This document shows, one piece after another, positions 5,227-57,708 of a stretch of 64,000 bases of DNA. The position numbers were made by a program, and so were the translations under genes. Source of the stretch: Streptomyces sp. NRRL WC-3742 (lineage in GTDB: Bacteria > Actinomycetota > Actinomycetes > Streptomycetales > Streptomycetaceae); assembly GCF_000720635.1 (NCBI RefSeq), contig NZ_JOCF01000009.1, positions 1-64,000 of the forward strand, in the 5' to 3' direction. Numbering within the stretch: the first letter of the stretch is position 1; each line of letters starts with the position of its first letter. Below the pieces are notes generated by a model. It had not been told where the DNA came from and made no database searches. It saw only the letters and a list, made by a program, of their open reading frames with translations.

Positions 5227-6035
5227 GCACCGAACTGCTCTCCCTCCAGGGCGTCGGCAAGTCCTACGGGACGGTGCGCGCCCTCCAGGACGTCTCGCTG
5301 ACCCTGAACGCCGGCGAGATCAGCTGCGTGCTCGGCGACAACGGCGCCGGCAAGTCCACCCTGATCAAGATCATCGCGGGGCTGCACCGGCACGACGAGG
5401 GCGTCTACACCGTCGCCGGGCAGGAGGTCCGCCTCGACTCCCCGCGCCAGGCCCTGGACCTCGGCATCGCCACCGTCTACCAGGACCTCGCCGTCGTCCC
5501 CCTGATGCCGGTGTGGCGCAACTTCTTCCTCGGCTCCGAACGCGGCCTGCGCCGCTGGGGCGGGCTGCGCCTGGACGCCGACGGCATGCGCGCCACCACC
5601 CGCGAGGCGCTCGCCGCCATGGGCATCGACCTGCACGACGTCGACCGCCCGATCGGCACCCTCTCCGGCGGGCAGCGCCAGTGCGTGGCCATCGCCCGGG
5701 CCGTCCACTTCGGCGCCAAGGTGCTCGTCCTCGACGAGCCGACGGCGGCGCTGGGCGTCAAGCAGTCCGGAGTGGTCCTCAAGTACGTCACCGCCGCCCG
5801 CGACGCCGGGCTCGGGGTCGTCCTGATCACCCACAACCCGCACCACGCCTACCTGGTCGGCGACCACTTCACCCTGCTCAAGCGGGGAAGGATGGCCGGC
5901 AGCCACCCCCGCGCCGAGATCGGCCTCGAACAGCTCACCACCGAGATGGCCGGCGGCTCCGACCTCGCCGAGCTCTCCCACGAGCTGGCCCGACCCTCTG
6001 CCACCGACCCCCGTGAGGAGCGTCCGCAGCCGTGA
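5223..6035 (+). CDS. Sugar ABC transporter ATP-binding protein
   Basis: Cytoplasmic ATPase of 270 residues that powers the permease. Walker A is GDNGAGKST, the Q-loop VYQDLAVV, the signature LSGGQRQ, Walker B VLVLDEPTAALG, and the switch His is in LITHNPHHA. Unlike RbsA/XylG, which carry two ATPase cassettes in about 500 residues, this has one, so it must act as a homodimer. ATG at 5223 overlaps the permease stop by 4 nt, and its own stop overlaps the GTG of the kinase gene by 4 nt. Single-cassette versions are known in actinobacterial sugar importers. Confidence 0.93.
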   Translation: MSTELLSLQGVGKSYGTVRALQDVSLTLNAGEISCVLGDNGAGKSTLIKIIAGLHRHDEGVYTVAGQEVRLDSPRQALDLGIATVYQDLAVVPLMPVWRNFFLGSERGLRRWGGLRLDADGMRATTREALAAMGIDLHDVDRPIGTLSGGQRQCVAIARAVHFGAKVLVLDEPTAALGVKQSGVVLKYVTAARDAGLGVVLITHNPHHAYLVGDHFTLLKRGRMAGSHPRAEIGLEQLTTEMAGGSDLAELSHELARPSATDPREERPQP

Positions 6036-7138
6036 CCAGCGCCCACGGCGGCACCCGGCCGCCCGTCCTGCCCACCCTGCTGGGCCTCGGCCCGCGCGCC
6101 GAGCGCCGCCGCCGCGCCCTGCCCGCCGGGATACTGCGCCTGCCCACCATCGGCGTCGACATCGGCGGCACCAAGGTCGTCGCCGGGGTCGTGGACGGGG
6201 AGGGCAAGGTGCTGGAGAAGCTGCGCACCGACACCCCCCACAAGAGCAAGAGCGCCAGGGTCGTCGAGGACGTCATCGTCGAGCTGGTGCTCCAGCTCGC
6301 CGACCGCCACGACGTCCACGCCGTGGGCATCGGCGCGGCCGGCTGGGTCGACGCCGACCGCTCCCGGGTACTCTTCGCCCCGCACCTCAACTGGCGCAAC
6401 GAGCCGCTCCAGCAGGCCCTCAGCGAGCGGCTGCGCTTCCCGGTGATCGTCGAGAACGACGCCAACGCTGCCGCCTGGGCCGAATGGCGCTTCGGCGCCG
6501 GCCGGGGCGAGGACCACATGGTGATGCTCACCCTCGGCACCGGCATCGGCGGCGCCGTCGTGCGCGACGGGTACGTCGACCGGGGTAAGTACGGCCTGGC
6601 GGGGGAGTTCGGGCACATGCAGGTGCTGCCCGGCGGCCACCGCTGCCCCTGCGGCAACCGCGGCTGCTGGGAGCAGTACTCCTCGGGCAACGCGCTGGTG
6701 CGCGACGCCCGGGAGCTGGTCGCCGAGGAGTCCCCGGTGGTGCAGCCGCTGCTCGCCCGGGCGGGCGGGACGGTCGAGGGCATCACCGGCCCGCTGGTCA
6801 CCGAGGCCGCGCAGGACGGCGACCCGACGGCGACCGAGCTGCTCTACGAGGTCGGCACCTGGCTGGGCGTCGGCATCGCCAACCTGGCCGCCGCCCTCGA
6901 CCCGGGCCGCTTCGTCATCGGCGGCGGTGTCTCCGACGCCGGCGACCTGCTGCTCGGCCCGGCGCGCGACACCTTCCGCCGCACCCTCACCGGGCGCGGC
7001 TTCCGGCCGGAGGCGACGATCGTCCACGCGGCCCTCGGCAACGAGGCGGGTCTGGTCGGCGCGGCCGACCTCGCCCGGCAGGTCGCGCGGCGCTTCCGCA
7101 CCATCAAGCGGCGGCGGGTGGAGCGCAGCGCGCTGTAG
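6032..7138 (+). CDS. ROK family sugar kinase (glucokinase-like)
   Basis: Cytoplasmic ATP-dependent sugar kinase of 368 residues, likely phosphorylating the sugar delivered by the coupled importer. It has the N-terminal phosphate-binding IGVDIGGTKV, the central LTLGTGIGGAVV, and the ROK zinc motif CPCGNRGCWEQ (about residues 208-218). An extra 40 residues, Arg-rich, precede the first motif. There is no N-terminal helix-turn-helix, so it is a kinase and not a ROK repressor. The GTG at 6032 overlaps the ATPase stop (GTGA). The coding end is followed within about 20 nt by a heptamer repeat array that contains a large palindrome. Confidence 0.9.
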   Translation: MTSAHGGTRPPVLPTLLGLGPRAERRRRALPAGILRLPTIGVDIGGTKVVAGVVDGEGKVLEKLRTDTPHKSKSARVVEDVIVELVLQLADRHDVHAVGIGAAGWVDADRSRVLFAPHLNWRNEPLQQALSERLRFPVIVENDANAAAWAEWRFGAGRGEDHMVMLTLGTGIGGAVVRDGYVDRGKYGLAGEFGHMQVLPGGHRCPCGNRGCWEQYSSGNALVRDARELVAEESPVVQPLLARAGGTVEGITGPLVTEAAQDGDPTATELLYEVGTWLGVGIANLAAALDPGRFVIGGGVSDAGDLLLGPARDTFRRTLTGRGFRPEATIVHAALGNEAGLVGAADLARQVARRFRTIKRRRVERSAL

Positions 7139-7159: not shown

Positions 7160-7290
7160 GACGGATTTCGGACGACGGCGGACAGATGTCAGCGGACAGA
7201 TGTCAGATGTCGGCGAACAGAGAACGTTCTCTGTTCGCCGACATCTGTTCGCTGACATCTGTTTCCGGTCCACTGTCATCTGTTCGTCAC
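7160..7290. repeat. Heptamer array A with a 44-bp perfect palindrome
   Basis: Degenerate 7-bp units stay in phase across this spacer. On the left they read ACAGATG, TCAGCGG, ACAGATG, TCAGATG, TCGGCGA, ACAGAGA (7182-7223). On the right they flip to CTGTTCG, CCGACAT, CTGTTCG, CTGACAT, CTGTTTC (7231-7265). The flip creates a zero-loop palindrome, 7204-7225 with 7226-7247, perfect over 22 bp per arm. Outer arms (7182-7199 with 7245-7262) also pair with one mismatch. It separates the ROK kinase from the gamma-glutamyltransferase gene and could act as a terminator, a protein-binding dyad, or a slippage product. Confidence 0.85.
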
Positions 7291-18972: not shown

Positions 18973-21704
18973 GCGGTGGCAGGGAGACGGGGGCGGTGCT
19001 GTCCGTGATGGAGGCCGAGGAGGGCGCCGAGCGGCTGCTCGCGGCCGTCAGGGCCGGGCGGACATCCTGGATACCCGTCCTGGTCGGCAAGATGGACGCG
19101 GCCCAGCGCCGCGCCGCCCTGCCCGGGCTCAAGGCGCTGCGCAAGGAACTGCGCGACCAGTGGTCCCGCGAGGACATCGCCGTCCCGGGCGCGCTGCTGG
19201 TGGCCGGCGCCGGCTGCCACACCGGCCCGGCGGGCGCCGCCACCTGGATGTCCGGCAGCGACTTCACGGGCCGCGACTGGGCGCGCAGCCGCGAGCTGGC
19301 GCAACTGGTGGAGGCGCAGCCCGTCGAGTGGCAGATCGAGGTGGCCACCCGGCTCGCCGAGCGGCCCTCCCCGCGCTGGGGCTGGTGGCTCTACTACCCG
19401 CTCGTCGACTCCGTGGTGAAGCGCACCGGCTGCCCGGTGCCGACGAGCGAGACCTTCGTCCGCGCCTGGCTGGAGCAGGGCTTCCAGGAGTGCCGCCGGG
19501 GCACGGCGCTCGCGGAGCGGCTGCGGGCCGACCCGTACACCCCGGTCCTCGTCCCGCAGCTGTTCGAACTCTCCGACGTCTCCCACGAGTTGTCCCGCAA
19601 CCGGAACGGGGGCCCGGGCGACTCCTGGGCGACGGCGATCGCCGGCCTGGCCGCCGGCGGTGACCTGGACCGCGCCGCCCTGATCGACCGCTGCCTGGCC
19701 CGGCTGCTGCGCGGCGGGAAGACGCCCGACCAGAAGGCGTTCCTGGACGTGCTGAGCGCGCTCGCCCCCACGCCCGAGGAGTACGCGGCGCGGGTGCGGG
19801 ACGTCCTGGCGCTGCTGGACGGGCCCTCGGTGCTCGCCGGGCACGCCCAGGAGGTGCTGATCGGGCTGGACGAGGCCGGGCTGATCGAGCCCGAGGCGCT
19901 GGTCGAAGCCTCCGCCGTGGTGCTGTTCCGCACGGAGAAGAAGCTGGTGCGCGCCCAGCTGGGCTGGCTGGAGAAGGCCGCCCGGCGCTCGCCCGAACGG
20001 GCCGGGCCCGCGGCGCTGGCCGCGGCCGAAGCCTTCGGGCACCCGGACGCGGGTGTGCAGGAGCGGGCGCTCAACCTGGTCGCCCGCCTGCTCAGGGCGG
20101 CCGGCGAGGCGGTGCTGCCCGAGCTGCGGCAGGCCGCCGAACTGCTCGGCCCCGCGTACCACGCGCGGGCCGGCGAGCTGTTCGGCGCCCCGGTCGGCGG
20201 CGGCGTCGCGGCGGACACCGAGGAGGTGCTCCCGCCCGTCCCCGTGCCGCTCCCGCTCGGGGAGCCCGTCGCCTCGGCGGCCGAGCTCGCCGAGGAGCTG
20301 TCCGCACTGCTCGCGCTGGAGCGGCCGGAGGTGGCCGTCTTCGAGCGGGTGCTGGACGGGCTGATCCGCCGGACCCACCTGGACCGGGAGGGGCTGCTCG
20401 CCGCGCTGGAGCCCGTCCGCCGCGCCCACCCGTGGAACGGCGGCGGCCACTGGGGCGACTGCACGCCCCGCGACGTGCTGTACGTCGTCGCCTCGATCGC
20501 GGGGGAGACGCCGCCGCACCGGCTCTGGGACGCCCTGCGCGGCAGGAAGCGCTCCCCGCTGCGCACGGCGTACGCCACCGTGCACGGCAGCGCGCTGGCG
20601 GCCCGGCTGGAGGAGGCTGCCTGGCAGGTCACGGCCACCCGGCCGCCCTACCTGCTCGCCACCCCGACCGACGCCTCCGGGGCGCTCGACCCCGCCGCGC
20701 TGGTCGCCCGGCTCGCCGGGTACGAGTCGGCGGGCATGGCGCCGGGCCATGCCGACCTGAGCGCCGCCCTGCTGAGGGTCGGTCCGCTGCCGGCCGACGA
20801 GGCCGTGCTGCGGGCGGCCGGGGCGCTCACCTCCCCGGCCGGGCAGGAGCTCGCGCAGTGGCTGCGCGGCGGGGGCCTGCCCGCCCAGCCGTCCGAGCGG
20901 GTGCTGTTCGAGCCGGCCAGGGCGGCCGGGCGCAGCCTGCGCCCGGGCGAGCACTGGTTCGAGGACGTACGGCGGGTGGCCGTCGCCCAGCCCGGGATCG
21001 GCGCGGGCGCGGCCAAGCGCCTCGCCGCCGAGTTCCGGGAGCTGCTCGCGGCCACCGAACCCAGCGTCGCCCGGGCCAAGCGGAACTACGACTGGGCGTG
21101 GCGGCCCGTCGCCCACTGGGCCGCGATGCTGCCCTGGCACCGGGAGGAGCTGGCGGCCCGTTGGCTCGACCACTTCGCCGCGGCAGCCGACCGCGACGAG
21201 CGCGGCCCCGGCCGGCTGCTGCCGCAGCTCGCCGAGGCGGGCGGCCCGGCCGGGCTGGCCGTGCACCTGGCGCTGGCGTACTGCCTGGGCTCGGCCACGG
21301 CCGAGGACCGCACCGGCGCCGTCGACGCCCTGCTGGTCCTCGCCGCCCGCGGGGACCTGGACGCGGGCCTGCTCGGGAGGGAACTGGGCGAGCTGACGGC
21401 GCTGGGGACGGTCAAGACCAACCGGCTCGCGGTCTCCCTCGCCCTGGCCGCCGAGACCGGGGCCCACCGCACGGTCTGGTCGGTCCTCGCCGCGTTCCTC
21501 CCCGTCCAGCTTGCCGCCGTGCTCGCCTCGGCCGACCCGGCGCCCCGGGGCCTCGGCGACCTCCTCGCCGTCGCCGCCGACACCGCCCGCCGCACCCCCG
21601 ACCGCGAGCCGATCGCGCAGGTGACGGCCCTCGCCGCCCGCGCGGGCTCCAGCCGGACGGTCAAGGCGGCCCGTACGCTCCGGGACGTCCTCGGGGACAG
21701 CTGA
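18969..21704 (+). CDS. DUF6493 family protein, helical-repeat
   Basis: Large cytoplasmic protein of 911 residues, with no signal peptide or membrane helix. Long stretches of Ala/Leu/Glu-rich amphipathic helices (for example ERALNLVARLLRAAGEAVLP and LDALL-type blocks) suggest a HEAT-like solenoid, a scaffold rather than an enzyme. It is translationally coupled to the SWIM protein by a 4-nt overlap, so the two probably act together. Features such as WGWWLYYPLVDSVVKRTGCP and HPWNGGGHWGDCTPRDVLY are the best-conserved-looking segments. Function unknown. The coding end is followed after 6 nt by heptamer array B. Confidence 0.85.
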   Translation: MSGGRETGAVLSVMEAEEGAERLLAAVRAGRTSWIPVLVGKMDAAQRRAALPGLKALRKELRDQWSREDIAVPGALLVAGAGCHTGPAGAATWMSGSDFTGRDWARSRELAQLVEAQPVEWQIEVATRLAERPSPRWGWWLYYPLVDSVVKRTGCPVPTSETFVRAWLEQGFQECRRGTALAERLRADPYTPVLVPQLFELSDVSHELSRNRNGGPGDSWATAIAGLAAGGDLDRAALIDRCLARLLRGGKTPDQKAFLDVLSALAPTPEEYAARVRDVLALLDGPSVLAGHAQEVLIGLDEAGLIEPEALVEASAVVLFRTEKKLVRAQLGWLEKAARRSPERAGPAALAAAEAFGHPDAGVQERALNLVARLLRAAGEAVLPELRQAAELLGPAYHARAGELFGAPVGGGVAADTEEVLPPVPVPLPLGEPVASAAELAEELSALLALERPEVAVFERVLDGLIRRTHLDREGLLAALEPVRRAHPWNGGGHWGDCTPRDVLYVVASIAGETPPHRLWDALRGRKRSPLRTAYATVHGSALAARLEEAAWQVTATRPPYLLATPTDASGALDPAALVARLAGYESAGMAPGHADLSAALLRVGPLPADEAVLRAAGALTSPAGQELAQWLRGGGLPAQPSERVLFEPARAAGRSLRPGEHWFEDVRRVAVAQPGIGAGAAKRLAAEFRELLAATEPSVARAKRNYDWAWRPVAHWAAMLPWHREELAARWLDHFAAAADRDERGPGRLLPQLAEAGGPAGLAVHLALAYCLGSATAEDRTGAVDALLVLAARGDLDAGLLGRELGELTALGTVKTNRLAVSLALAAETGAHRTVWSVLAAFLPVQLAAVLASADPAPRGLGDLLAVAADTARRTPDREPIAQVTALAARAGSSRTVKAARTLRDVLGDS

Positions 21705-21710
21705 CGGGGT

Positions 21711-21829
21711 TCAGCGAACAGATAACAGCAAACAGAAACCAGCGAACAGAAACCAGCGAACAGAAGACACCGAACAGATGTCAGTGGGCAGAGGATGAAA
21801 TCTGTTCGCTGACGTCTGTTTGTTGTCCG
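21711..21829. repeat. Heptamer array B, over the MBL gene stop
   Basis: Seventeen in-phase heptamers: TCAGCGA, ACAGATA, ACAGCAA, ACAGAAA, CCAGCGA, ACAGAAA, CCAGCGA, ACAGAAG, ACACCGA, ACAGATG, TCAGTGG and so on, then flipped CTGTTCG, CTGACGT, CTGTTTG, TTGTCCG. It fills the gap between convergent genes and covers the stop codon and last 16 or so codons of the minus-strand MBL gene (stop at 21781). The orientation flip near 21800 makes an imperfect dyad that could terminate both transcripts. Confidence 0.85.
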
Positions 21830-23046
21830 CCCGCCACGGGCTCCGGCGTGGCGCCGCCCGGGGCGGCCGCCGCGACGGAGCGCCACCAGAGGCGCAGGGC
21901 CGGCGGGGCGGCGGGTTCGAAGGGCTTGCCGGGGCGGGGCACGGCGAGGCGGGCGCCGAGCGCCTGGGCGGCGGCGACCACGCGTTCCGCGGGCTCCTCC
22001 CAGGGGTGCATGGCGAGGTTGAAGGTGCACCAGTGGATGGGCATCAGGAGGTCGCCGCCCACGTCCAGGTGGGCCCGGACGCCCTCCTCCGGGGTCATGT
22101 GCACCTCGGGCCAGAACCGGCTGTACGCGCCGACCTGCATCATCGTCGCGTCGAAGGGGCCCAGCCGCCGCCCGATCTCGGCGAACCCGGGGAAGTACCC
22201 GGTGTCCCCGCTGTGGAAGATCCGGTGCCCGCCGCCGGCCACCACCCAGGAGGCCCACAGGAACAGCGGGCTGGTGCGGGGCCCGCGCGAGCAGTAGTGG
22301 CGGGCCGGGGTGGCGGTGAGGGTCAGCCCGGCGACCTCGGCGCTCTCCCACCAGTCCAGCTCGACGATCCGCGAGGCCGGCACCCCCCAGTGCTCCAGGT
22401 GCGCCCCGACCCCCAGCGGCACGGCGAACACCGCCTCCGTCGCGGTCAGGGCCCTCACCGTCGCCATGTCGAGGTGGTCGTAGTGGTCGTGGGAGACCAC
22501 CACCACGTCCACCGGCCCGAGTTCGGACAGCGGCAGCGGTACCGGGTGCAGCCGCTTGGGGCCCGTCCAGGAGAACGGGGAGCAGCGCTCGCCCCAGACC
22601 GGGTCGATCAGCACCCGCCGCCCGCCGATCTCGGCGAGGACGGTGGCGTGGCCGAGCCAGGTCAGCCGCAGGCCGGAGGCGGGCGGGGCGGCGAGGTCGG
22701 CGGGCAGGAGGCGGTGCACCGGCACGGCGGCGGCGGGCGAGCGGCGGGTCTTGTCGCCGGTCAGCTGGGCCCGGGTGATCTCCAGCGGGCTGCGCTCGTA
22801 CACGAGGCGCCGGGTGGGCAGCGGGTTGCGGAAGGCGCCGTCGGCAAACTGGGGGGAGCGGCGGATGCGGGCCAGTCGCTCGCCCCGGGGCTCGGCGCCG
22901 AAGGCGTCGGTGCGCACGCGGTGCCAGGCCGCGCGGGGCAGTCCGGCGAGGCCGGGGACGGCGCGGGCGGCGGCGGGGGTGGCCGGGGGGACGAAGAGGG
23001 CGGACAGACCGGCGAGGCGGGAGAACCAGGGGGCGGGGCGGGGCAC
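21781..23046 (-). CDS. MBL-fold metallo-hydrolase (UlaG/NAPE-PLD-like)
   Basis: Metal-dependent hydrolase of about 421 residues. The metal motif is SHDHYDHLD, with later ligands in FHSGDTGYFPGF and the final MPIHWCTFNLAMHPWEEP. The layout, with RLTWLGHATVLAEIGGRRVL leading into the motif, fits the NAPE-PLD/UlaG-like subgroup, which acts on lipids or phosphodiesters; the true substrate is unknown. Start: the GTG at 23046 follows GGAGGA by only 3 nt; a TTG at 23127 would add 27 residues. The C-terminus (QQTDVSEQISSSAH) is encoded by heptamer array B, so the natural end of the ancestral protein was probably earlier. Confidence 0.85.
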   Translation of the reverse strand: MPRPAPWFSRLAGLSALFVPPATPAAARAVPGLAGLPRAAWHRVRTDAFGAEPRGERLARIRRSPQFADGAFRNPLPTRRLVYERSPLEITRAQLTGDKTRRSPAAAVPVHRLLPADLAAPPASGLRLTWLGHATVLAEIGGRRVLIDPVWGERCSPFSWTGPKRLHPVPLPLSELGPVDVVVVSHDHYDHLDMATVRALTATEAVFAVPLGVGAHLEHWGVPASRIVELDWWESAEVAGLTLTATPARHYCSRGPRTSPLFLWASWVVAGGGHRIFHSGDTGYFPGFAEIGRRLGPFDATMMQVGAYSRFWPEVHMTPEEGVRAHLDVGGDLLMPIHWCTFNLAMHPWEEPAERVVAAAQALGARLAVPRPGKPFEPAAPPALRLWWRSVAAAAPGGATPEPVAGGQQTDVSEQISSSAH

Positions 23047-39999: not shown

Positions 40000-41961
40000 A
40001 TGGCGGAGACGACTGCTGTTTCCGGAGGTCCCGACCCGGCTTCGGACTCGGGCCCCTGGGACGCCGTACCGCCGCCCTTCGCCGAGGAGCACCCGCCCGG
40101 GCCCGCTGCCCTGTACGAGCCGCCGCCCGCGCTCCCCGTTCCGCCCACCGCCCCGCCCACCGGGTGGACCCTCACGGGGATGCCCGCCGCGGGCCCGGCC
40201 CCCGCGCCGATTCCCACCGCCACGGTGACGGGCGGGTTCGGGGCCGCGCCGCGCGGGCGCGTGCTGGTGGTCGAGGGCGGCTACGGCGTCTCCGGCCGCC
40301 GGACCTGGGGCGGGCGCGGCGGCGCCGGTCACGCGCCGGTGCTGTCGGCGATGCTGGCGGCCGTCTCCCCGCAGGTGCTGCTCGCCGCGGACGGGGTGGA
40401 CGCCGTCCACCTGCCCGGCGCCGTCGACCCGCAGACCGTCCTCGCCCACCTGCGCGCCGCCGCCCTGCACCCCGGGCCGCTGCTGGTGCACCTGGGCGGG
40501 CACGTCGTCGCCGACAAGCGCGGCGGACAGCTCCAGCTCACCCTGCGCGACGCCCGGCAGGAGGGCCTGCCCTGGCAGGCGATCGCCGCCGAGCTGAGCG
40601 GCCGACCCGCCGACTGGCAGACCCTCGTCATCGCCGACCTGAGCGCCGACCAGAACGCCTGGCCCTACCTCCAGGGCACCGTCTCGCCGTTGAGCGAGGG
40701 CATCCCGCTGTGGGCGGTCGTCAGCCCGGACCCGGAGCAGATCGGCACCTTCACCCGGGCCCTGATCGAGGCCCTGCACGGCGGACGCCCGGGCGCGGGG
40801 GAGGTGCTGGCGCCGGAGGAGCTTCGCCAGCAGGTGTACTCGGTGCTGCGGCCGGACGTGGTCATCCTCGCCACCCACGCCAAGGACCGGCCGGTGTTCC
40901 GCAACACCGCCCGGCGGGCGGACGCCCCGGTGGCGGACGCCGTCCCGGCGCCGGTGCCCGCGCCCGTCCCCTTCACGCCCCCGCCGTTCCCGGCGCCACG
41001 TCAGGAGGAGCCCCGGGACGCGGTCGTTGAACCCGTTCCGGCTTCGGCTCCTGCCCCGGTCGCACTGCCGCCCCGGCCGCGCGTTGTGGGTGAAGCGGTG
41101 AGCCTGGTCAAGGCGCATGTGCCGCCGACCCCGCCCCGGCCGTCGCGTCCGGTCAGCCTCGCGAAGGCGGGCCCGGTGGAGGACGTGCGGGCGCCGGAGT
41201 CGGTGTCCCTGGACAAGCCCGTCCCGGCCGACGCGATCCCCGAGGACGCCGCGCCCACGGCCGGCGTCACCCTCGCGAAGCCGGGCCCCGAACCGGAGGA
41301 GCAGCCCGAACTCCCGGAGCCCGCACCCGAGATGGAGGCGGAGCTCGAGGTTCCGGAGGAGCCGGCGCCGCAGGACGCCGTCCCCGCCGATGCCGTGCCG
41401 GAGCCGTCGGACGCCGTCCCCGCTGACGAGACGCCCGCTGACGAGGTGCCCTCCGACGAGGTCCCCGCTGACGAGACGCCTGCCGAGGAGGCACCCGCCC
41501 CGGCGGCTGCCGAGCCGCGCGAGGACTACCGCGAGGTGATCGGACGGATCGTCCGCAGCGCCGACGCCGGCGACCACGCGGCCGCCACCGACCTCGCCTT
41601 CGCCCTCGAGCTGGAGGCGATCGCCGAACACGGCGCCGTCTCCGAACCCGTCCTGCAGGTGCGTCAGGTCCGGGCCCATGTGAGCCGCCTGGCGGGCCGC
41701 CTCGGCGAGGCCGCGATCATCTACCGCGAGGTGGCGCTGACCATGCTGCGCTCGCGCGGCGCCGACAGCCCGGAGACCCAGCAGGCGGCGACCAACGCCG
41801 AAGCCTGCTGGCGCAAGATCACCGACCGGGACGAGGCCGTCCGCATCGCCCCCGAGATCATCGAACTGCGCGCCCACCTCCCGGGCCCCGACGGCCGCAA
41901 GCTGCGCGCCGCCGAGCGCTACCTCGCCCAGCTGGTCGCCACCCCGGCGGCGGGCAAGTAA
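40000..41961 (+). CDS. Caspase-like fold protein with TPR-type C-terminus
   Basis: 653 residues. A Pro-rich N-terminus (1-85) leads to GRVLVVEGGYGVSGRR, VLAHLRAAALHPGPLLVHLG, GGHVVADKRGGQLQLTL and LVIADLSADQNAWPYL, which track caspase-like strands. The His in GGH is present, but no Cys follows the Asp (ADLSAD), so protease activity is unlikely. A middle region is a Pro/Glu/Ala linker with repeats of VSLDK/VSLVK and PADE-type acidic units. The C-terminus (EVIGRIVRSADAGDHAAATD to QVRAHVSRLAGRLGEAA) looks like TPR helices. It shares its fold order with the gene at 24458. Start: ATG 40000. The stop TAA shares its last base with heptamer array C. Confidence 0.75.
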   Translation: MAETTAVSGGPDPASDSGPWDAVPPPFAEEHPPGPAALYEPPPALPVPPTAPPTGWTLTGMPAAGPAPAPIPTATVTGGFGAAPRGRVLVVEGGYGVSGRRTWGGRGGAGHAPVLSAMLAAVSPQVLLAADGVDAVHLPGAVDPQTVLAHLRAAALHPGPLLVHLGGHVVADKRGGQLQLTLRDARQEGLPWQAIAAELSGRPADWQTLVIADLSADQNAWPYLQGTVSPLSEGIPLWAVVSPDPEQIGTFTRALIEALHGGRPGAGEVLAPEELRQQVYSVLRPDVVILATHAKDRPVFRNTARRADAPVADAVPAPVPAPVPFTPPPFPAPRQEEPRDAVVEPVPASAPAPVALPPRPRVVGEAVSLVKAHVPPTPPRPSRPVSLAKAGPVEDVRAPESVSLDKPVPADAIPEDAAPTAGVTLAKPGPEPEEQPELPEPAPEMEAELEVPEEPAPQDAVPADAVPEPSDAVPADETPADEVPSDEVPADETPAEEAPAPAAAEPREDYREVIGRIVRSADAGDHAAATDLAFALELEAIAEHGAVSEPVLQVRQVRAHVSRLAGRLGEAAIIYREVALTMLRSRGADSPETQQAATNAEACWRKITDRDEAVRIAPEIIELRAHLPGPDGRKLRAAERYLAQLVATPAAGK

Positions 41962-42072
41962 CAGCGGACGAAAGTCGGCGAACGAATAACAGAAGACAGA
42001 AGACAGCAAACAGCGAACGGATGACAGATGGTGAAATCTGTCATCCGTTCGCTGTCAGGCGTTACCCGTCAT
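41961..42072. repeat. Heptamer array C with a perfect 20-bp hairpin
   Basis: In-phase heptamers from the TAA stop on: ACAGCGG, ACGAAAG, TCGGCGA, ACGAATA, ACAGAAG, ACAGAAG, ACAGCAA, ACAGCGA, ACGGATG, ACAGATG, then flipped CTGTCAT, CCGTTCG, CTGTCAG. It fills most of the gap between the convergent ends of the caspase-like and S53 genes. Confidence 0.9.
42010..42055. terminator. Repeat-derived hairpin between convergent genes
   Basis: Perfect 20-bp stem (42010-42029 with 42036-42055) around a 6-nt loop GGTGAA. Built from heptamers; position and stability suit a bidirectional terminator for the two genes that converge here. Confidence 0.75.
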
Positions 42073-42091: not shown

Positions 42092-43489
42092 CTACTGCTC
42101 GTTCTCGTCACCCTGGATGTCGCCCGCGAGCGCGTGGACGAAGGTGGTGCCGTCGATGGTGCCGAGGCCGCTGGCGAGGTCGTAGCCCGCGGTGGCGTTG
42201 TAGCCGGTGACGCCGTTCCAGCCGTTGTCGCCCTCCTTGACGTCCACGATGCCGCTCCACTTGCTCGGGAGCATGCTCAGGCCGTACAGGCGACCGTTGA
42301 TCTGGCCGATGCGGTGGCCGGCGAGCTGGTCGGCGAGGGCGACGATGCCCGAGAACAGCGGGGTGGCCTCGCTGGTGCCGCCGGTGAGGTGCCAGCCGAC
42401 CGCGGTCGGGTCGTAGGACTCGTACGTCCAGGCGGCGCCGTCGACGGCCGCGCTCATGCTGATGTCGGGCGTGCCGCGGTGGTTGCCGGTGACGTTGGCG
42501 ACGCCGGTCTGGTACCACGGGCGGGAGAAGATGCCGGAGACGCCGCCGCCGCCCGCACCCGACTTGTCGTGCCACACCTTGTCGGCCGCGGTGCGCTTGC
42601 CGCTGTCGTCCAGGGTGAGCTGGGTGCCGCCGATGGAGGTGACCAGCGGGTCGGAGGACGGCCAGGAGTTGACCTTGAACGGGTACAGGTCGGACCCGTT
42701 GGACTGCGCGTCGGTGGCGCCGTTGTCGCCGGAGGCGGCGAGCACGGTCACGCCGCGGTCGGCGGCGGCCCTGAAGGCGTAGCGCAGGTCGGTCAGCGAC
42801 TTGAAGTCGCCCTTGTCGTAACCCGGGAAGGTGTTCTCGGTGGCGCCGAAGCTCTGCGAGATGACGTCGCCGCGGCCCTTCTTGATGAGGTCCTTCTCGG
42901 CGTCCATCATCTCGGGCAGGCCCGTGGTGCCCTCGGTCTCGGCGACACCGGTCTCGACCAGGACGATGTGGGCGTCGGGGGCGATGGCGTGGGCGTACTC
43001 GACGTCCAGCGTGGTCTCGCCGGCCCAGCCGGTGTGGTCGGGGTTCTTCGGGTCGAAGACGGGGACGTTGCCCCACTTGACGACCTCGACCTGGGTGTCC
43101 TGGATGCCCCACTGCTTGTCGAAGACCTCCAGGTCGTGCTGGATGGTCGGCGAGCCGAAGGAGTCGACGATGACGATCGTGCGGCCCTTGCCCGTCACGC
43201 CCTCCTTGTAGAGGGGGTTCAGGTTGTAGGCGGTGCGGTACTGCAGCGGCGAGTAGCAGTGGATGCCGATCTTGCTGACGCACTCGGTGGTGCTCAGCGG
43301 GGCGACGCGCCCCTGGGCGTCGTGGTGGCCGAAGGAGGCCGGGCGCACGTGGACGCCCGAGTAGTCGTGCGTGGTGGGGGCGGCGGTCGCGATACCGGCC
43401 GCGGGGACGGCGACGGTGCCGGCCGTGAGGGCGGTGGCCCCTACGGCGAGCAGAGCCAGGGCGCGGCGAAGGGTGGCGGGGCTGCCCAT
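42092..43489 (-). CDS. Secreted S53 sedolisin-type serine peptidase
   Basis: 465-residue secreted protease. Signal peptide: LRRALALLAVGATALTAGTV, with cleavage near AGIATAAP. The SED triad is visible: Glu and Asp in WAGETTLDVEYAHAIAP, and Ser in GGTSEATPLFSG; the oxyanion Asp is in ASGDNGATDA. Calcium-binding residues are expected near the end (DVKEGDNGWNG, ATAGYDLASGLG). The usual long pro-domain is absent; a short pre-region before SPLQYRTAYNL suggests the compact class common in streptomycetes. AAGGAG 5 nt before ATG 43489 fixes the start. Confidence 0.93.
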   Translation of the reverse strand: MGSPATLRRALALLAVGATALTAGTVAVPAAGIATAAPTTHDYSGVHVRPASFGHHDAQGRVAPLSTTECVSKIGIHCYSPLQYRTAYNLNPLYKEGVTGKGRTIVIVDSFGSPTIQHDLEVFDKQWGIQDTQVEVVKWGNVPVFDPKNPDHTGWAGETTLDVEYAHAIAPDAHIVLVETGVAETEGTTGLPEMMDAEKDLIKKGRGDVISQSFGATENTFPGYDKGDFKSLTDLRYAFRAAADRGVTVLAASGDNGATDAQSNGSDLYPFKVNSWPSSDPLVTSIGGTQLTLDDSGKRTAADKVWHDKSGAGGGGVSGIFSRPWYQTGVANVTGNHRGTPDISMSAAVDGAAWTYESYDPTAVGWHLTGGTSEATPLFSGIVALADQLAGHRIGQINGRLYGLSMLPSKWSGIVDVKEGDNGWNGVTGYNATAGYDLASGLGTIDGTTFVHALAGDIQGDENEQ

Positions 43490-47880: not shown

Positions 47881-49113
47881 TCACCATGGCTCGCGGGCCA
47901 CGAAGGCCGGCCGCAGCGACGGGTCCACCGGGTCGTAGTAGCGGTGGTAGACCGGCGTCAGCCCGCCCGAGACCGGAGGAACGATCCAGCTCCAGTCCGC
48001 CGGGGTGGGCCGCCCCAGCCGCGCCTCCTGGGCGACGTGCTTGAGGAAGCGGTGCGACTCGGTGTGGTGGTCGGCCACCGTCACCCCGGCCTCCTGGAAG
48101 GAGTGCAGCACCGCGAGGTTGAGCTCCACGAGCGCCCGGTCGCGCCAGAGCGTGCGGTCGTGGGAGGTGTCCAGGCCCAGGCGCTCGGCGACGGTGGCGA
48201 GCATGTCGTAGCGGTCGGCGTCGGCGAGGTTGCGGGCGCCGATCTCGGTGCCCATGTACCAGCCGTTGAAGGGCGCGGTCGGGTAGCGCACGCCGCCGAT
48301 CTCCAGCGCCATGTCGCTGATCGCGGGCACCGCGTACCAGCGCAGGCCCAGCTCGGCGAACCAGGCGTGCTCGGGGTGGGTGAGCGGCACCTCCAGCGCG
48401 GCGTCGTCCGGCAGCTCGTACCAGGACGGGCGCTCGCCCGGGCGCTCCTGGACCAGCAGCGGCAGCACCTCGAAGCGGTCCTCGGCGCACTTCCAGCCCA
48501 GGTCGCGGGCGCGGGCCGCGAGCGCGGCGCCCGCCGGGTCGCCGACCACGGCGCCGTCGACGTGGTGGCCGGCGTAGCGGACGAGCTGCTGGTTGAGGAT
48601 GCGCGGGGCCGGGCGGCCCGGGCGGTCCGGGGCGAACACCGAGATCACCGGGCGGATCCGCCCGCCGTTGCCCGCGAGCCGCAGGTGCTCGAAGCACTCG
48701 GCGGCCAGGTCGTCGGCGGAGGAGAGGTGGCGCAGGTCGCGCACCACCAGGCTGCGCCAGTACAGCCGGCCGATGCAGCGGGCGGCGTTGCGCCAGGCGA
48801 GCCTGGCGCCGTAGGCGAGTTCGGCGGGGGTGTGGACGTAGGTGCCGGTGCGCCCGATCTCGTCCAGGACGGCGTGCAGCCGCTCCTCGGGTGCTCCGGC
48901 GGCGGGCTGCTCCCGGTGGAAGCGCCGGACGAACTCGGAAGCCTGCTCGGGGTCGGTGAACGGCGGCGCTGCGGGCGCGGGCTCCGGGACGCTCCGCGGC
49001 TCGGGCTCGCTGAACGGGGGTGGCGCGCTCGGGTGGGCGTGGGCGTACGGGCAGCCGCCGGTGGGGGCAGTGGGGGCGGCGGGTCTGCGGGTGCGAAGCC
49101 GGTCGAAGATCAA
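47881..49113 (-). CDS. nos: Nitric oxide synthase oxygenase
   Basis: Bacterial NOS oxygenase of 410 residues, making nitric oxide and citrulline from arginine. The heme-thiolate Cys113 is in LAWRNAARCIGR, and the substrate-binding Glu in NGWYMGTEIGARN. SWIVPPVSGGLTPVYH near the C-terminus forms part of the pterin and dimer region. It lacks a reductase domain, as bacterial forms do. The 50-residue N-terminal extension is Pro-rich with a CPYAHAH motif of unknown role. It stands alone: no P450, thaxtomin-type NRPS or reductase is adjacent. A perfect hairpin separates it from the upstream glucose permease gene. Confidence 0.93.
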   Translation of the reverse strand: MIFDRLRTRRPAAPTAPTGGCPYAHAHPSAPPPFSEPEPRSVPEPAPAAPPFTDPEQASEFVRRFHREQPAAGAPEERLHAVLDEIGRTGTYVHTPAELAYGARLAWRNAARCIGRLYWRSLVVRDLRHLSSADDLAAECFEHLRLAGNGGRIRPVISVFAPDRPGRPAPRILNQQLVRYAGHHVDGAVVGDPAGAALAARARDLGWKCAEDRFEVLPLLVQERPGERPSWYELPDDAALEVPLTHPEHAWFAELGLRWYAVPAISDMALEIGGVRYPTAPFNGWYMGTEIGARNLADADRYDMLATVAERLGLDTSHDRTLWRDRALVELNLAVLHSFQEAGVTVADHHTESHRFLKHVAQEARLGRPTPADWSWIVPPVSGGLTPVYHRYYDPVDPSLRPAFVAREPW

Positions 49114-55700: not shown

Positions 55701-56852
55701 TCAGCTCCTTCCCAACCGGGCGAGCCGTTCCAGGACGGTCTCCAGCAGGGGCTCGGGGAGGGCGTAGTTGAGGCGCAGGAAGCCCGCGCCGCCGGGGCCG
55801 AACACGTCCCCGGCGGTGGCCTCCAGGGCGCAGCGCTCCAGCAGCGCCCGCTCGGCGCCCCCGGGCGGCAGGCCCAGGGCGGCGGCGTCCAGCCACAGCA
55901 GGTAGGAGGACTGCGGCGCGGAGCGCACGGCCGGGCCGAGCAGGCGGGTCAGCCGGTCGCGGGCGGCGCTCAGGTGGGCGAGCAGGGCGTCCAGCCAGGG
56001 GCCGCCCTCGCTCAGCGCGGCCCGCTGGACGGTCTGCTCCAGCAGCCCGCCCTCCCAGAGGCCGTAGCCGGCGAGCTCCTCGGTGAAGCGGGCACGCAGC
56101 GCGGGGTCCGGGACGAGGGCGAAGGCGCTGGGGAGGCCGGAGCAGTTGAAGGTCTTGCCGACGGAGTTGAGGGTGACGGTGTGCGGGCGCAGCGCCGGAT
56201 CGACGGTGGTGACGGCCACGGGGTGGGTGTGGCCGGGGTGGGTGAGGTCGCCGTGCACCTCGTCGGAGACCAGCAACGCGCCCGCCTCCGCGGCCCGTTG
56301 GGAAAGGGCGCGCAGCTCCTCGGCGGGCCAGACGCGGGCGGAGGGGTTGTGCGGGCTGCTCAGCAGTACGGCCGAAGTGGGGCCCGGGAGGGGGCCGTTG
56401 GGCAGGTGGTAGCCGTCCGGGCCCAGGGGGAGCGGCAGTTCGCGGTACGGGAGGCGGGCGGCGCGGCACAGCTGGGCGAAGCCGCCCCACTCGGGGGTGG
56501 GGAAGGCGAGCGGCGCCTGCGGCCGTACGGTCTCCAGCAGGACGCGCAGCGCGGTGCGGGGGCCGCAGGGCAGCAGGACCACCCAGTCCGGGTCCACCTC
56601 GGCGCCGTGGCGGGTGCGGTACCAGTGGGCGACCAGCTCGCGCCCGGCCGGGTCGCAGACGGTGTAGCCGTACGCGCGGTGGCGGGCCCGGCGGTGGAGG
56701 GCCTCGGCGACGGCGGGCGGGCCGGGCAGGTCCATGTCCGCGAGCCCGAGGGGGATCACCCCGGGGGCGGTGGCGCGGGCCCACTTGGCGCTGCCGGTGC
56801 CGGAGCGGTCGAAGGGGGCGGCGAACAGAGGTGGAAATTCGTCCGCTGACAT
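55701..56852 (-). CDS. MalY/PatB-type PLP-dependent C-S lyase or aminotransferase
   Basis: Fold-type I PLP enzyme of 383 residues. The family start FDRSGTGSAKWARATAPG, ADMDLPGPPAVAEAL, GYTVCDPAG, the SSPHNPSARVW Asn, SDEVHGDLTHPGHTHP (PLP-ring Asp) and the Schiff-base Lys in NSVGKTFNCSGLPSAF all fit. PatB/MalY proteins cleave C-S bonds of cysteine conjugates. It lies just upstream of egtABCD on the same strand, so it may provide the missing EgtE-like lyase step. The ATG at 56852 sits in heptamer array D; no ribosome-binding site is seen. An in-frame ATG at 56873 would add heptamer-encoded residues. Confidence 0.85.
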   Translation of the reverse strand: MSADEFPPLFAAPFDRSGTGSAKWARATAPGVIPLGLADMDLPGPPAVAEALHRRARHRAYGYTVCDPAGRELVAHWYRTRHGAEVDPDWVVLLPCGPRTALRVLLETVRPQAPLAFPTPEWGGFAQLCRAARLPYRELPLPLGPDGYHLPNGPLPGPTSAVLLSSPHNPSARVWPAEELRALSQRAAEAGALLVSDEVHGDLTHPGHTHPVAVTTVDPALRPHTVTLNSVGKTFNCSGLPSAFALVPDPALRARFTEELAGYGLWEGGLLEQTVQRAALSEGGPWLDALLAHLSAARDRLTRLLGPAVRSAPQSSYLLWLDAAALGLPPGGAERALLERCALEATAGDVFGPGGAGFLRLNYALPEPLLETVLERLARLGRS

Positions 56853-56989
56853 CTGTTCGCTGTTATCCGTCATCTGACATCTGTCGTCCGTCGACTGTGA
56901 TCTGTCCGCCGTCATCTGTCCACTGTCGTCTGTCCGCTGTCATCTGTGGACCGTCATCTGCGCGCCGTCATCCGCCGGTCGTCCGCCGC
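56843..56989. repeat. Heptamer array D, 21 in-phase units
   Basis: Twenty-one consecutive 7-bp units without an indel: CCGCTGA, CATCTGT, TCGCTGT, TATCCGT, CATCTGA, CATCTGT, CGTCCGT, CGACTGT, GATCTGT, CCGCCGT, CATCTGT, CCACTGT, CGTCTGT, CCGCTGT, CATCTGT and so on. All point the same way; unlike arrays A-C there is no flip, only a short GCGAACAG (56821-56828) as complement. It covers the start codon of the MalY-like gene and the stop codon of the SRPBCC gene. Confidence 0.9.
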
Positions 56990-57522
56990 AGGCCGCGATC
57001 CGCCGCCCGTGACCCGTCCCGCTGCGCCGGAATCGCGCCGCCCGCGAGGTGCGCCGCGAGCCCGCGCCGCCCACGCCACATCATCACCGCGTGGTTGGCG
57101 CGGAACACGGGGTGCAGCGGCAGTGCGAGGCGGCGCAGCAGGGCTTTGCCCGGCCGGGCGTCCTCCTCGAACAGCACCCGGCTCCCCCCGCCGCCGGGCC
57201 CGTCCGGGGTGACGGTGAACCGCGTCCAGCCGGCGAGGTCGCCACTCATGGCCACCTCCAGCACCCCGGCCGCCGGGTCGCGGCGGCGTGTCGCCAGGGC
57301 GATCACCAGCCGGTACGGCAGCACCGCGCGTATCACCACGTCCCCGGTGTCCGGCCCGGTCTGCCGCACCTCGCGCACCTCCGGCCACCAGTGCGGGTAA
57401 CCGGCCACGTCCTCCAGTGCCGCGTACACCGCGGGAGGGGGCGCGGGGAGGTGCCAGAGGCCGCGGAAGCGGTAGTGATTGGGGTCCACGTGCTCCCCCT
57501 GCCCCGGCTGGGAGCCGTCCAT
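56968..57522 (-). CDS. SRPBCC family lipid-transfer-like protein
   Basis: 184 residues with the START/polyketide-cyclase-like fold. The pattern WHLPAPPPAVYAALEDVAGY, PHWWPEVREVRQTGPDTGDV and LFEEDARPGKALLRRLALPL is typical. Such proteins bind hydrophobic ligands or act as cyclases. ATG 57522 is used; GTG 57489, 3-4 nt after GGGGGAG, is an alternative. The TGA stop and the last few codons lie in heptamer array D. It diverges from the DUF574 methyltransferase gene. Confidence 0.82.
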   Translation of the reverse strand: MDGSQPGQGEHVDPNHYRFRGLWHLPAPPPAVYAALEDVAGYPHWWPEVREVRQTGPDTGDVVIRAVLPYRLVIALATRRRDPAAGVLEVAMSGDLAGWTRFTVTPDGPGGGGSRVLFEEDARPGKALLRRLALPLHPVFRANHAVMMWRGRRGLAAHLAGGAIPAQRDGSRAADRGLRRTTGG

Positions 57523-57708
57523 GCGCCGCCCCGGAAAGCGGAGGGACGGCGGGTGAACACCCCGTGATGGTGAACCGTCGGGAGCAGGGCATTCCGCTTG
57601 CAGCCGTTCGGGGGGCGAGGGAGCATCTTGTGTGCTTGTAGTCTCATCTGTCACAGCGGTAGTCATCAGGCACTGCGCCCCCGTAACCGGAGTGAAGGAG
57701 TCACAGGC

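Follow-up and report, generated by a model that had tools for sequence, protein, structure and literature searches.

The window analysed here, a stretch of 64,000 nucleotides from Streptomyces sp. NRRL WC-3742, contains four places where the DNA after a gene end is built of consecutive 7-bp units, and this locus raises the question of where such arrays come from and what they do. A sequence-only reading had located the four arrays and described their units as mostly ACAGnnn or its complement nnnCTGT, with all four lying after gene ends. Re-parsing of the sequence bore out the coordinates and the 7-bp units, and the position is likewise as described: array A follows the stop at 7138, arrays B and C lie between convergent stops, and array D follows the stop at 56968–56970. 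The word 'mostly' holds if one-step variants are counted, since at the best phase these together with exact ACAG or CTGT starts make up 53 of the 68 units in the four arrays, and fails for exact starts (34/68). Per array, exact starts and then starts including variants number 8 and 11 of 15 units in A, 8 and 12 of 17 in B, 8 and 11 of 16 in C, and 10 and 19 of 20 in D.

Recurrences of ACAG and CTGT in the window fall at lags of 7, 14, 21 and 28 and hardly at any other. Chains of phased units gave 12 matches in contig C9 versus none in its order-1 Markov copy, and Markov copies of all 13 stretches scanned yielded 0 arrays, and a chance origin was rejected. The phasing thus withstood the part of the comparison with randomised DNA that was run, on copies of the stretches scanned. 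A control with reversed order, which scored in array stretches (e.g., 24 versus 33 in G004), was set aside as invalid because reversed arrays retain the 7-bp phase. The expectation that different arrays have units in common was, as far as compared, borne out too, and both units and sites are shared across species.

Table 1. Coordinates of the arrays, of the genes that flank them or served as landmarks, and of a second palindrome in relatives (window positions unless a genome and contig are given)
Feature	Position	Strand	Remarks
Array A	7182..7286		15 heptads in a tandem gap; long inverted repeat with the centre ACAGAGAACGTTCTCTGT near 7225
Array B	21711..21829		17 units; flanked by the convergent stops at 21704 and 21781
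Array C	41961..42072		16 units; flanked by the convergent stops at 41961 and 42092
Array D	56843..56989		about 20 CTGT-type units; one-armed in the window's genome (nearly only the CTGT arm kept)
ROK-family glucokinase-like gene	6032..7138	+	TIGR00744; ends before array A
902-aa ORF	18996..21704	+	ends before array B
Metallo-beta-lactamase-fold gene	21781..22917	-	ends at array B
ORF	40000..41961	+	ends at array C
Subtilase-domain gene	42092..43348	-	ends at array C; orthology anchor
Nitric-oxide-synthase oxygenase gene	47881..48747	-	served to locate the region in relatives
Aminotransferase class I/II ORF	55701..56915	-	downstream of array D
Polyketide_cyc2-domain frame	56968..57708	-	start codon unassigned; stop at right edge of array D
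GACAGATTTTGAAATCCGTC site	G007 C3:549846		
GACAGATTTTGAAATCCGTC site	G063 C1:7139351		
GACAGATTTTGAAATCCGTC site	G020 C1:4081197		
GACAGATTTTGAAATCCGTC site	G082 C1:4553759		
GACAGATTTTGAAATCCGTC site	G059 C54:41329		

The ACAG half and the CTGT half of an array are inverted copies, and ACAGnnn units meet complementary nnnCTGT units across the centre. Predicted folding was strong for array A (−73.2 kcal/mol, z −7.6), array B (−54.2 kcal/mol, z −4.6) and array C (−52.8 kcal/mol, z −8.3), and array D does not stand out (−39.9 kcal/mol, z −0.6). Array C has a 20-bp stem centred at 42032 with the centre ACAGATGGTGAAATCTGT. Array B contains a single TGAAATCTGT half-site, and its central palindrome pairs at 16 of 24 positions, under the 18/24 complementary positions that we set as the hairpin threshold. 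Site D was followed in 17 other genomes, where an array was detected in 8; the hairpin is kept in 7 of these 8 (18–23 of 24 positions paired), with G043 at 16/24. The window had no Rfam match at gathering scores.

Among the flanking genes, no NCBIfam family was found for the 902-aa ORF and no Pfam family for the ORF that ends at array C. The arrays are visible at corresponding places in relatives: heptads can be seen in array A's gap in G083 and in G004, where the detector made no call; a G004 array adjoins the orthologue of one array B neighbour; and at site C an array lies near the gene end in 12/12 genomes of the clade. Between 56843 and 56915, array D covers what may be the first codons of the aminotransferase gene in its longest ORF, and its heptads may therefore be translated as the N-terminus of the protein in some species. 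The nitric-oxide-synthase oxygenase used as a landmark has a match in 54 of 70 Kitasatospora genomes and a diverged copy (53–58% identity) in 14.

We next turn to the spread of the family among genomes, in which G000 is the window's own genome (8.74 Mb, 233 contigs) and the other G numbers are relatives. A loose pattern of three ACAGNNN units matched G000 28 times genome-wide versus 18 in its control; because ACAGNNN units alone were too loose, they were replaced by patterns with the inverted partner or with the core. The same three-unit pattern plus its inverted partner gave 14 matches in G000 versus 0 in the reversed control, on contigs C4, C9 and C48, and the detector found two further arrays on contig C33. 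This hairpin pattern occurs in 11 of 25 genomes of the same genus (G000 included) versus 0/16 from other genera, and the core was matched at least once in 33 of 70 genomes of the genus and six times or more in 19. An order-wide search of 391 genomes (two of this genus) with a strict pattern found a single match in one genome outside the genus, G108; this search says little about weaker relatives because the pattern is insensitive and misses even G000. The genus is taken to be Kitasatospora because a 32-base palindrome has exact matches at 20 loci in named genomes, which are Kitasatospora aureofaciens, K. xanthocidica and Kitasatospora sp. SUK 42 as well as strains filed as Streptomyces (novaecaesareae, NRRL S-350, CB02056, CBMA156, FH025 and LS1784).

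A tree built from six proteins joined end to end sets the 12 array genomes that it includes apart from 12 others with support of 1.00, some inner supports being low; its rows are 24 of 25 genomes (G003, which lacks two of the genes, is out), and the array genomes G001, G018 and G066–G069 lie outside it. The group nearest to the array clade (G082, G007, G059, G078, G020, G006 and G063) is without full arrays. One of its members, G059, carries roughly a dozen copies; the six whose flanks were examined all map to the chromosomal block described below. A second palindrome near the operator core, GACAGATTTTGAAATCCGTC, is present in five genomes (Table 1) and may likewise be targeted by the TetR-family regulator introduced below; the three loci that were read (L227, L229 and L221) have flanks unlike the block sequences compared. 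In G042 (L213) and G077 (L230), longer inverted repeats, rich in GC and placed behind stop codons, enclose the core palindrome, which occupies the apex of apparent terminator stems or lies close to it. Open-licence literature on heptamer repeats, Kitasatospora palindromes and the core sequence yielded no description of the array family.

The sequence-only reading had called the family dispersed. It is a real family that recurs after gene ends, but in the main clade its arrays stay within a single block of about 400 kb. In six genomes all core matches listed fall within 323–470 kb, with the same tetR gene inside: 31 in G004, at 1.67–2.07 Mb of an 8.86-Mb contig; 28 in G083, at 0.98–1.38 Mb; 27 in G011, at 5.09–5.45 Mb, with hairpin-pattern matches from 5.00 Mb; 23 in G017, at 5.86–6.33 Mb, with one more array at about 6.346 Mb; 25 in G018, inside 385 kb, with one hairpin-pattern place on the separate contig C18 that is not placed relative to the block; and 16 in G008, inside 323 kb. 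Within the G004 block, the detector called 33 arrays over 460 kb, and four 100-kb stretches of G004 outside it held 0 arrays and 0 core matches. Sites restricted to one chromosomal block, as expected of macrodomain marks, are thus observed directly in the six genomes and in the G004 controls. They are not observed in G077, where nine core copies on 8 contigs cannot fit one such block, which argues against strict locality. An excess at lag 7 was seen only in convergent gaps of the block in array genomes; four other G004 stretches and 60 kb of contig C1 in G000, with just 3–8 convergent gaps each, had none, and a second heptad family elsewhere was rejected.

The block lies about 2.1–2.8 Mb from dnaA in G004, G083, G017 and G011. 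With dnaA on the same contig in these four, tetR is 55–131 kb from the block edge on the dnaA side and 315–361 kb from the far edge; the distances to the two unoriented edges are 65 and 320 kb in G018, and 62 and 261 kb in G008. The block is found on one side of dnaA in G004 and G083 and on the opposite side in G017 and G011, and since the minus strand carries dnaA in each of these genomes, an inversion that left the block intact is suggested. G000 and G004 are syntenic over the block, which G078 also has, there without arrays; on this ground a horizontally acquired island was rejected. A plasmid or phage origin was rejected as well, as the 46-base core had no match among 72,556 records of plasmids and 50,697 of phages (E 0.01). 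A REP-like or MITE-like palindrome moved by a transposase would fit dispersed palindromes at 3′ ends and the cores within longer inverted repeats in G042 and G077; it is very improbable given the confinement to one block in the six main-clade genomes, the variation of array length by whole heptads, and those same empty searches of plasmid and phage records.

The position of the arrays relative to genes was counted in G000, G004, G011 and G083 for gaps of 20–600 bp. An array is present in 40/123 convergent, 21/413 tandem and 1/99 divergent gaps, compared with 0/31, 0/110 and 0/20 in control stretches and 0/108 in G078; these counts are approximate, the gene calls having come from a simple script based on composition. 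A gene end faces the array within the set distance for 80 of 95 arrays. Where both neighbours of a gap are conserved, 8 of 9 array gaps of G000 are also arrayed in G004, compared with 2 of 133 non-array gaps, and five other pairs of array genomes agree, with 2–5 shared sites each. The sequences within these conserved sites are another matter: the alignment score per base is 0.51 between orthologous arrays, 0.47 between non-orthologous arrays of one genome and 0.45 when these come from different genomes. That orthologous arrays are barely more alike than others implies fast turnover, and the sequences turn over while the arms stay paired. Copying mainly from neighbouring arrays was rejected, since similarity drops with distance in G004 (rho −0.20) and not in G011 (0.00).

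Such turnover is what neutral local spread would produce, in which heptad palindromes copy through errors of replication or repair such as template switching or slippage and persist without function in 3′ gaps where they do no harm. Template switching between inverted repeats also yields matching arms, according to the part of that literature drawn on here. We consider neutral spread quite unlikely, because the sites are strongly conserved between species and, as set out below, operator-like sequence is over-represented at array centres.

The core pattern led to a single gene pair. In the array-free genomes G007, G078, G082, G024 and G081, a core copy lies in one common gap, upstream of an operon that encodes an aldo-keto reductase (AKR; PF00248) and a TetR-family regulator (PF00440/PF17935), and the single copy of G108 maps to the same gap; the core pattern was unmatched in G006. 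In G000 the tetR gene is at C4:123160–123741, downstream of the AKR gene, and in G004 it is at C1:2010340–2010924. The regulator is present in 149/297 genomes of the family at E 1e-60. The putative operator reads TGACAGATATTGAAATCTGTCA across the family and GACAGATTTTGAAATCTGTC in much of Kitasatospora. The palindrome includes TTGAAA, and CATAGT or a similar hexamer follows about 17 bp later, a promoter-like arrangement, so that the palindrome likely overlaps the promoter. Outside the genus, the TTGAAA palindrome was found in 20/20 fragments read (20 of 92 matches listed), directly before the script-found AKR start in 19 of them. Among 30 Kitasatospora loci read, an AKR start was found in 26, and 25 of these 26 have the palindrome. 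A conserved palindrome upstream of the regulator's own operon in several genera, as expected of a TetR operator, was hence found at this putative founder site.

Heptads are seen at the operator itself. The operator of G089 has extra heptads, and many Kitasatospora operators carry heptads upstream, including those of the array-free genomes G078 and G063. The regulator gene is present in all 19 genomes with at least six core matches and in G000, and of the 13 genomes of the genus without tetR, 12 have no core match and one has a single match, a co-occurrence that is confounded by phylogeny. In the helix-turn-helix of the regulator (rows of loci L231–L260), VSHSSVYRH was read in 18/18 array-clade rows, G000 included, and VSHGSVYRF or VSHGSVYRH, with G at the fourth position, in 10 of 12 other rows; this pattern is weak evidence because the array-clade rows are one lineage.

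Operator and arrays are alike in sequence. The commonest array centre, ACAGATTTCGAAATCTGT, is one base off the Kitasatospora operator and has the half-site ACAGATTTC on both sides. The hairpin threshold is reached by 62 of 95 arrays, and 33 fall below it, the window's B and D among them. A ACAGATTTC half-site is present at the centre of 47 of the 62 hairpin arrays, compared with 18 of 365 ACAG occurrences in the arms; 19 of the 62 have a centre with two half-sites, and 15 have no full half-site. The commonest heptad, ATGACAG (173/953), is the operator half-site GACAGAT in another register.

We further analyzed whether the two arms change together. Mean pairing in the arrays is 18.5/24 positions, versus 12.5 with their own heptads permuted. 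In 20 operators from outside Kitasatospora, whose arms differ between species, 84% of the flanking positions are paired versus 44% after shuffling (0/5000). With the near-duplicates G124 and G183 left out, the remaining 18 operators had 93.3% paired versus 78.9% shuffled (0/500) and covariation of 0.38 versus 0.12 (0/500); 7 pairs had changed on both sides, a number reached in 87/500 shuffles. At site C, 11 of 12 sequences were used (G022 has a broken right arm): the stem is 99.5% paired versus 96.5% shuffled (0/500), with just 3 of 20 pairs varying, and 3 pairs changed on both sides, reached in 180/500 shuffles. Pairing at arm positions 24–30, beyond the site C stem, was not above shuffling.

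One reading of these data is that the TetR protein or a paralogue binds the arrays, perhaps spreads on them, and so marks or organises the block, with 3′ gaps serving merely as harmless sites. It would account for the operator-like centre kept at hairpin centres, for the tetR gene lying inside the block in six genomes, and for its presence in all 20 genomes counted as array-bearing; SlmA, whose sites are enriched in the origin-proximal chromosome according to the portion of the source consulted (PMC3573117), is among the weak sequence matches of the tetR product. We regard this as rather unlikely: one-armed arrays are without a full operator, tetR is present in many array-free genomes, and the SlmA match reflects the general TetR fold. 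An ampler version, in which the regulator turned its own operator into a chromosome-block system of several dozen bound arrays (possibly cooperative along half-sites spaced at 7 bp) at gene ends fixed within a clade and no further than about 400 kb around its gene, acting as roadblocks or terminators and as domain marks, we hold to be unlikely.

Most arrays, though not all, form a stable hairpin after a stop codon, as intrinsic terminators do. The U-tract is weak, with a mean of 2.8 T in 8 and at least 5 T at 5 of 124 stem ends. A Term-seq atlas of Streptomyces, in the part available to us, describes terminators with long, stable hairpins and 3–4 U per 10 nt (PMC12207403). In several relatives, gap C has an unrelated GC-rich palindrome, as judged by eye. 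The part of an array gap that lies outside the array offers nothing beyond weak hairpins (−10.8), a value confounded by how short these parts are (median 54 nt). Compared with other convergent gaps, array gaps reach a slightly less stable best hairpin (−39.1 versus −43.6, p 0.018). The arrays have a mean GC of 49% in a genome of about 74%. Taken together, the position in 3′ gaps, the hairpins and the paired changes most likely point to terminators. A terminator role does not explain the block edges, and the operator-like centre, which termination does not need, suggests that TetR binding has been kept or that descent is recent.

We therefore favour, with a probability of roughly 0.6, an account in which a TetR operator grew by half-site repeats, spread to nearby 3′ gaps and acts there as hairpin terminators. 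The arrays would descend from the palindromic operator of the TetR-family regulator encoded in the same block. This operator would have grown longer as its heptad half-site, GACAGAT, was repeated in tandem, which would explain the 7-bp phase. Copies would then have spread to neighbouring intergenic gaps after stop codons, chiefly between convergent genes. There the inverted arms would form a hairpin of 20–30 bp readable from both strands, most likely ending transcription in both directions as an intrinsic terminator where relatives have GC-rich hairpins. Selection, template-switch correction of imperfect palindromes, or the two together may keep the arms complementary. The anatomy, the 3′-end position, the site conservation, the restriction to one block in six genomes, the resemblance of the sequence to the operator and the covariation are read directly from the genomes; we infer from them the direction of descent, the termination and the mode of copying. 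TetR may still bind the arrays, and as the operator-like centre is kept in most of them, binding of many arrays is probable. Apparent stages survive in living relatives, from a single palindrome through a heptad-extended operator and the dozen or so copies of G059 to full arrays, which makes it possible to trace how a bacterial repeat family arose and spread.

How do the arrays compare with known systems? Cyanobacterial STRR are intergenic tandem heptamers, and the sequence-only reading had pointed to them. The likeness stands as regards tandem heptamers between genes. The Kitasatospora arrays differ in their unit, in the design of their hairpins, in their apparent origin from a TetR operator and in their regional limit, and the STRR are an analogy to them, not kin. 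The same likeness holds for TAACTGA direct repeats, which are known from Beggiatoaceae, Cyanobacteria and Bacteroidetes and, in the genome studied, lie mostly just upstream of start codons, as far as the consulted part of that report goes (PMC4679880). The Kitasatospora arrays differ from these in lying after stops, in being inverted and domain-limited, and in having units mainly of nnnACAG. In the P6b element of the Nostoc tRNA-Leu(UAA) intron, heptanucleotide repeats pair in a hairpin, according to the section of the source drawn on (PMC3488679); those repeats occupy one intron locus, whereas Kitasatospora has dozens of intergenic arrays with an operator-like centre.

Autoregulatory TetR operators are palindromes that overlap the likely promoter of their own operon, as at AKR-tetR; unlike the usual ones, the operators and arrays described here have arms that covary and grow by heptads, and copies at 3′ ends tens to hundreds of kb away. 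REP/BIME elements are dispersed palindromes in 3′ gaps; the arrays are distinguished from them by heptad construction, variable length, one block and a likely operator origin. MatP/matS is a case of many dispersed sites for one DNA-binding protein in part of the chromosome. SlmA, as described in the excerpt used, is a TetR-like protein acting through dispersed chromosomal sites (PMC3573117). The arrays resemble both systems in having dispersed sites enriched in a part of the chromosome, with TetR as the candidate binder, and differ in that the sites are long arrays at 3′ ends, with putative binding and a putative domain function. If the chromosome-block reading were true, the arrays would be an invention parallel to SlmA or MatP, and the block of about 400 kb is a ready test case for repeat-marked domains on Kitasatospora chromosomes. 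Long stable hairpins are shared with Streptomyces intrinsic terminators as covered in the part of the atlas consulted (PMC12207403), and the weak U-tracts may be a further likeness. Unlike these terminators, the arrays are one repeat family of 7-bp units with a GC of 49%. None of the compared systems shares the array unit, position, block and apparent origin, and the family joins three separately studied topics: the transcription-factor operator, bacterial intergenic repeats and transcription terminators.
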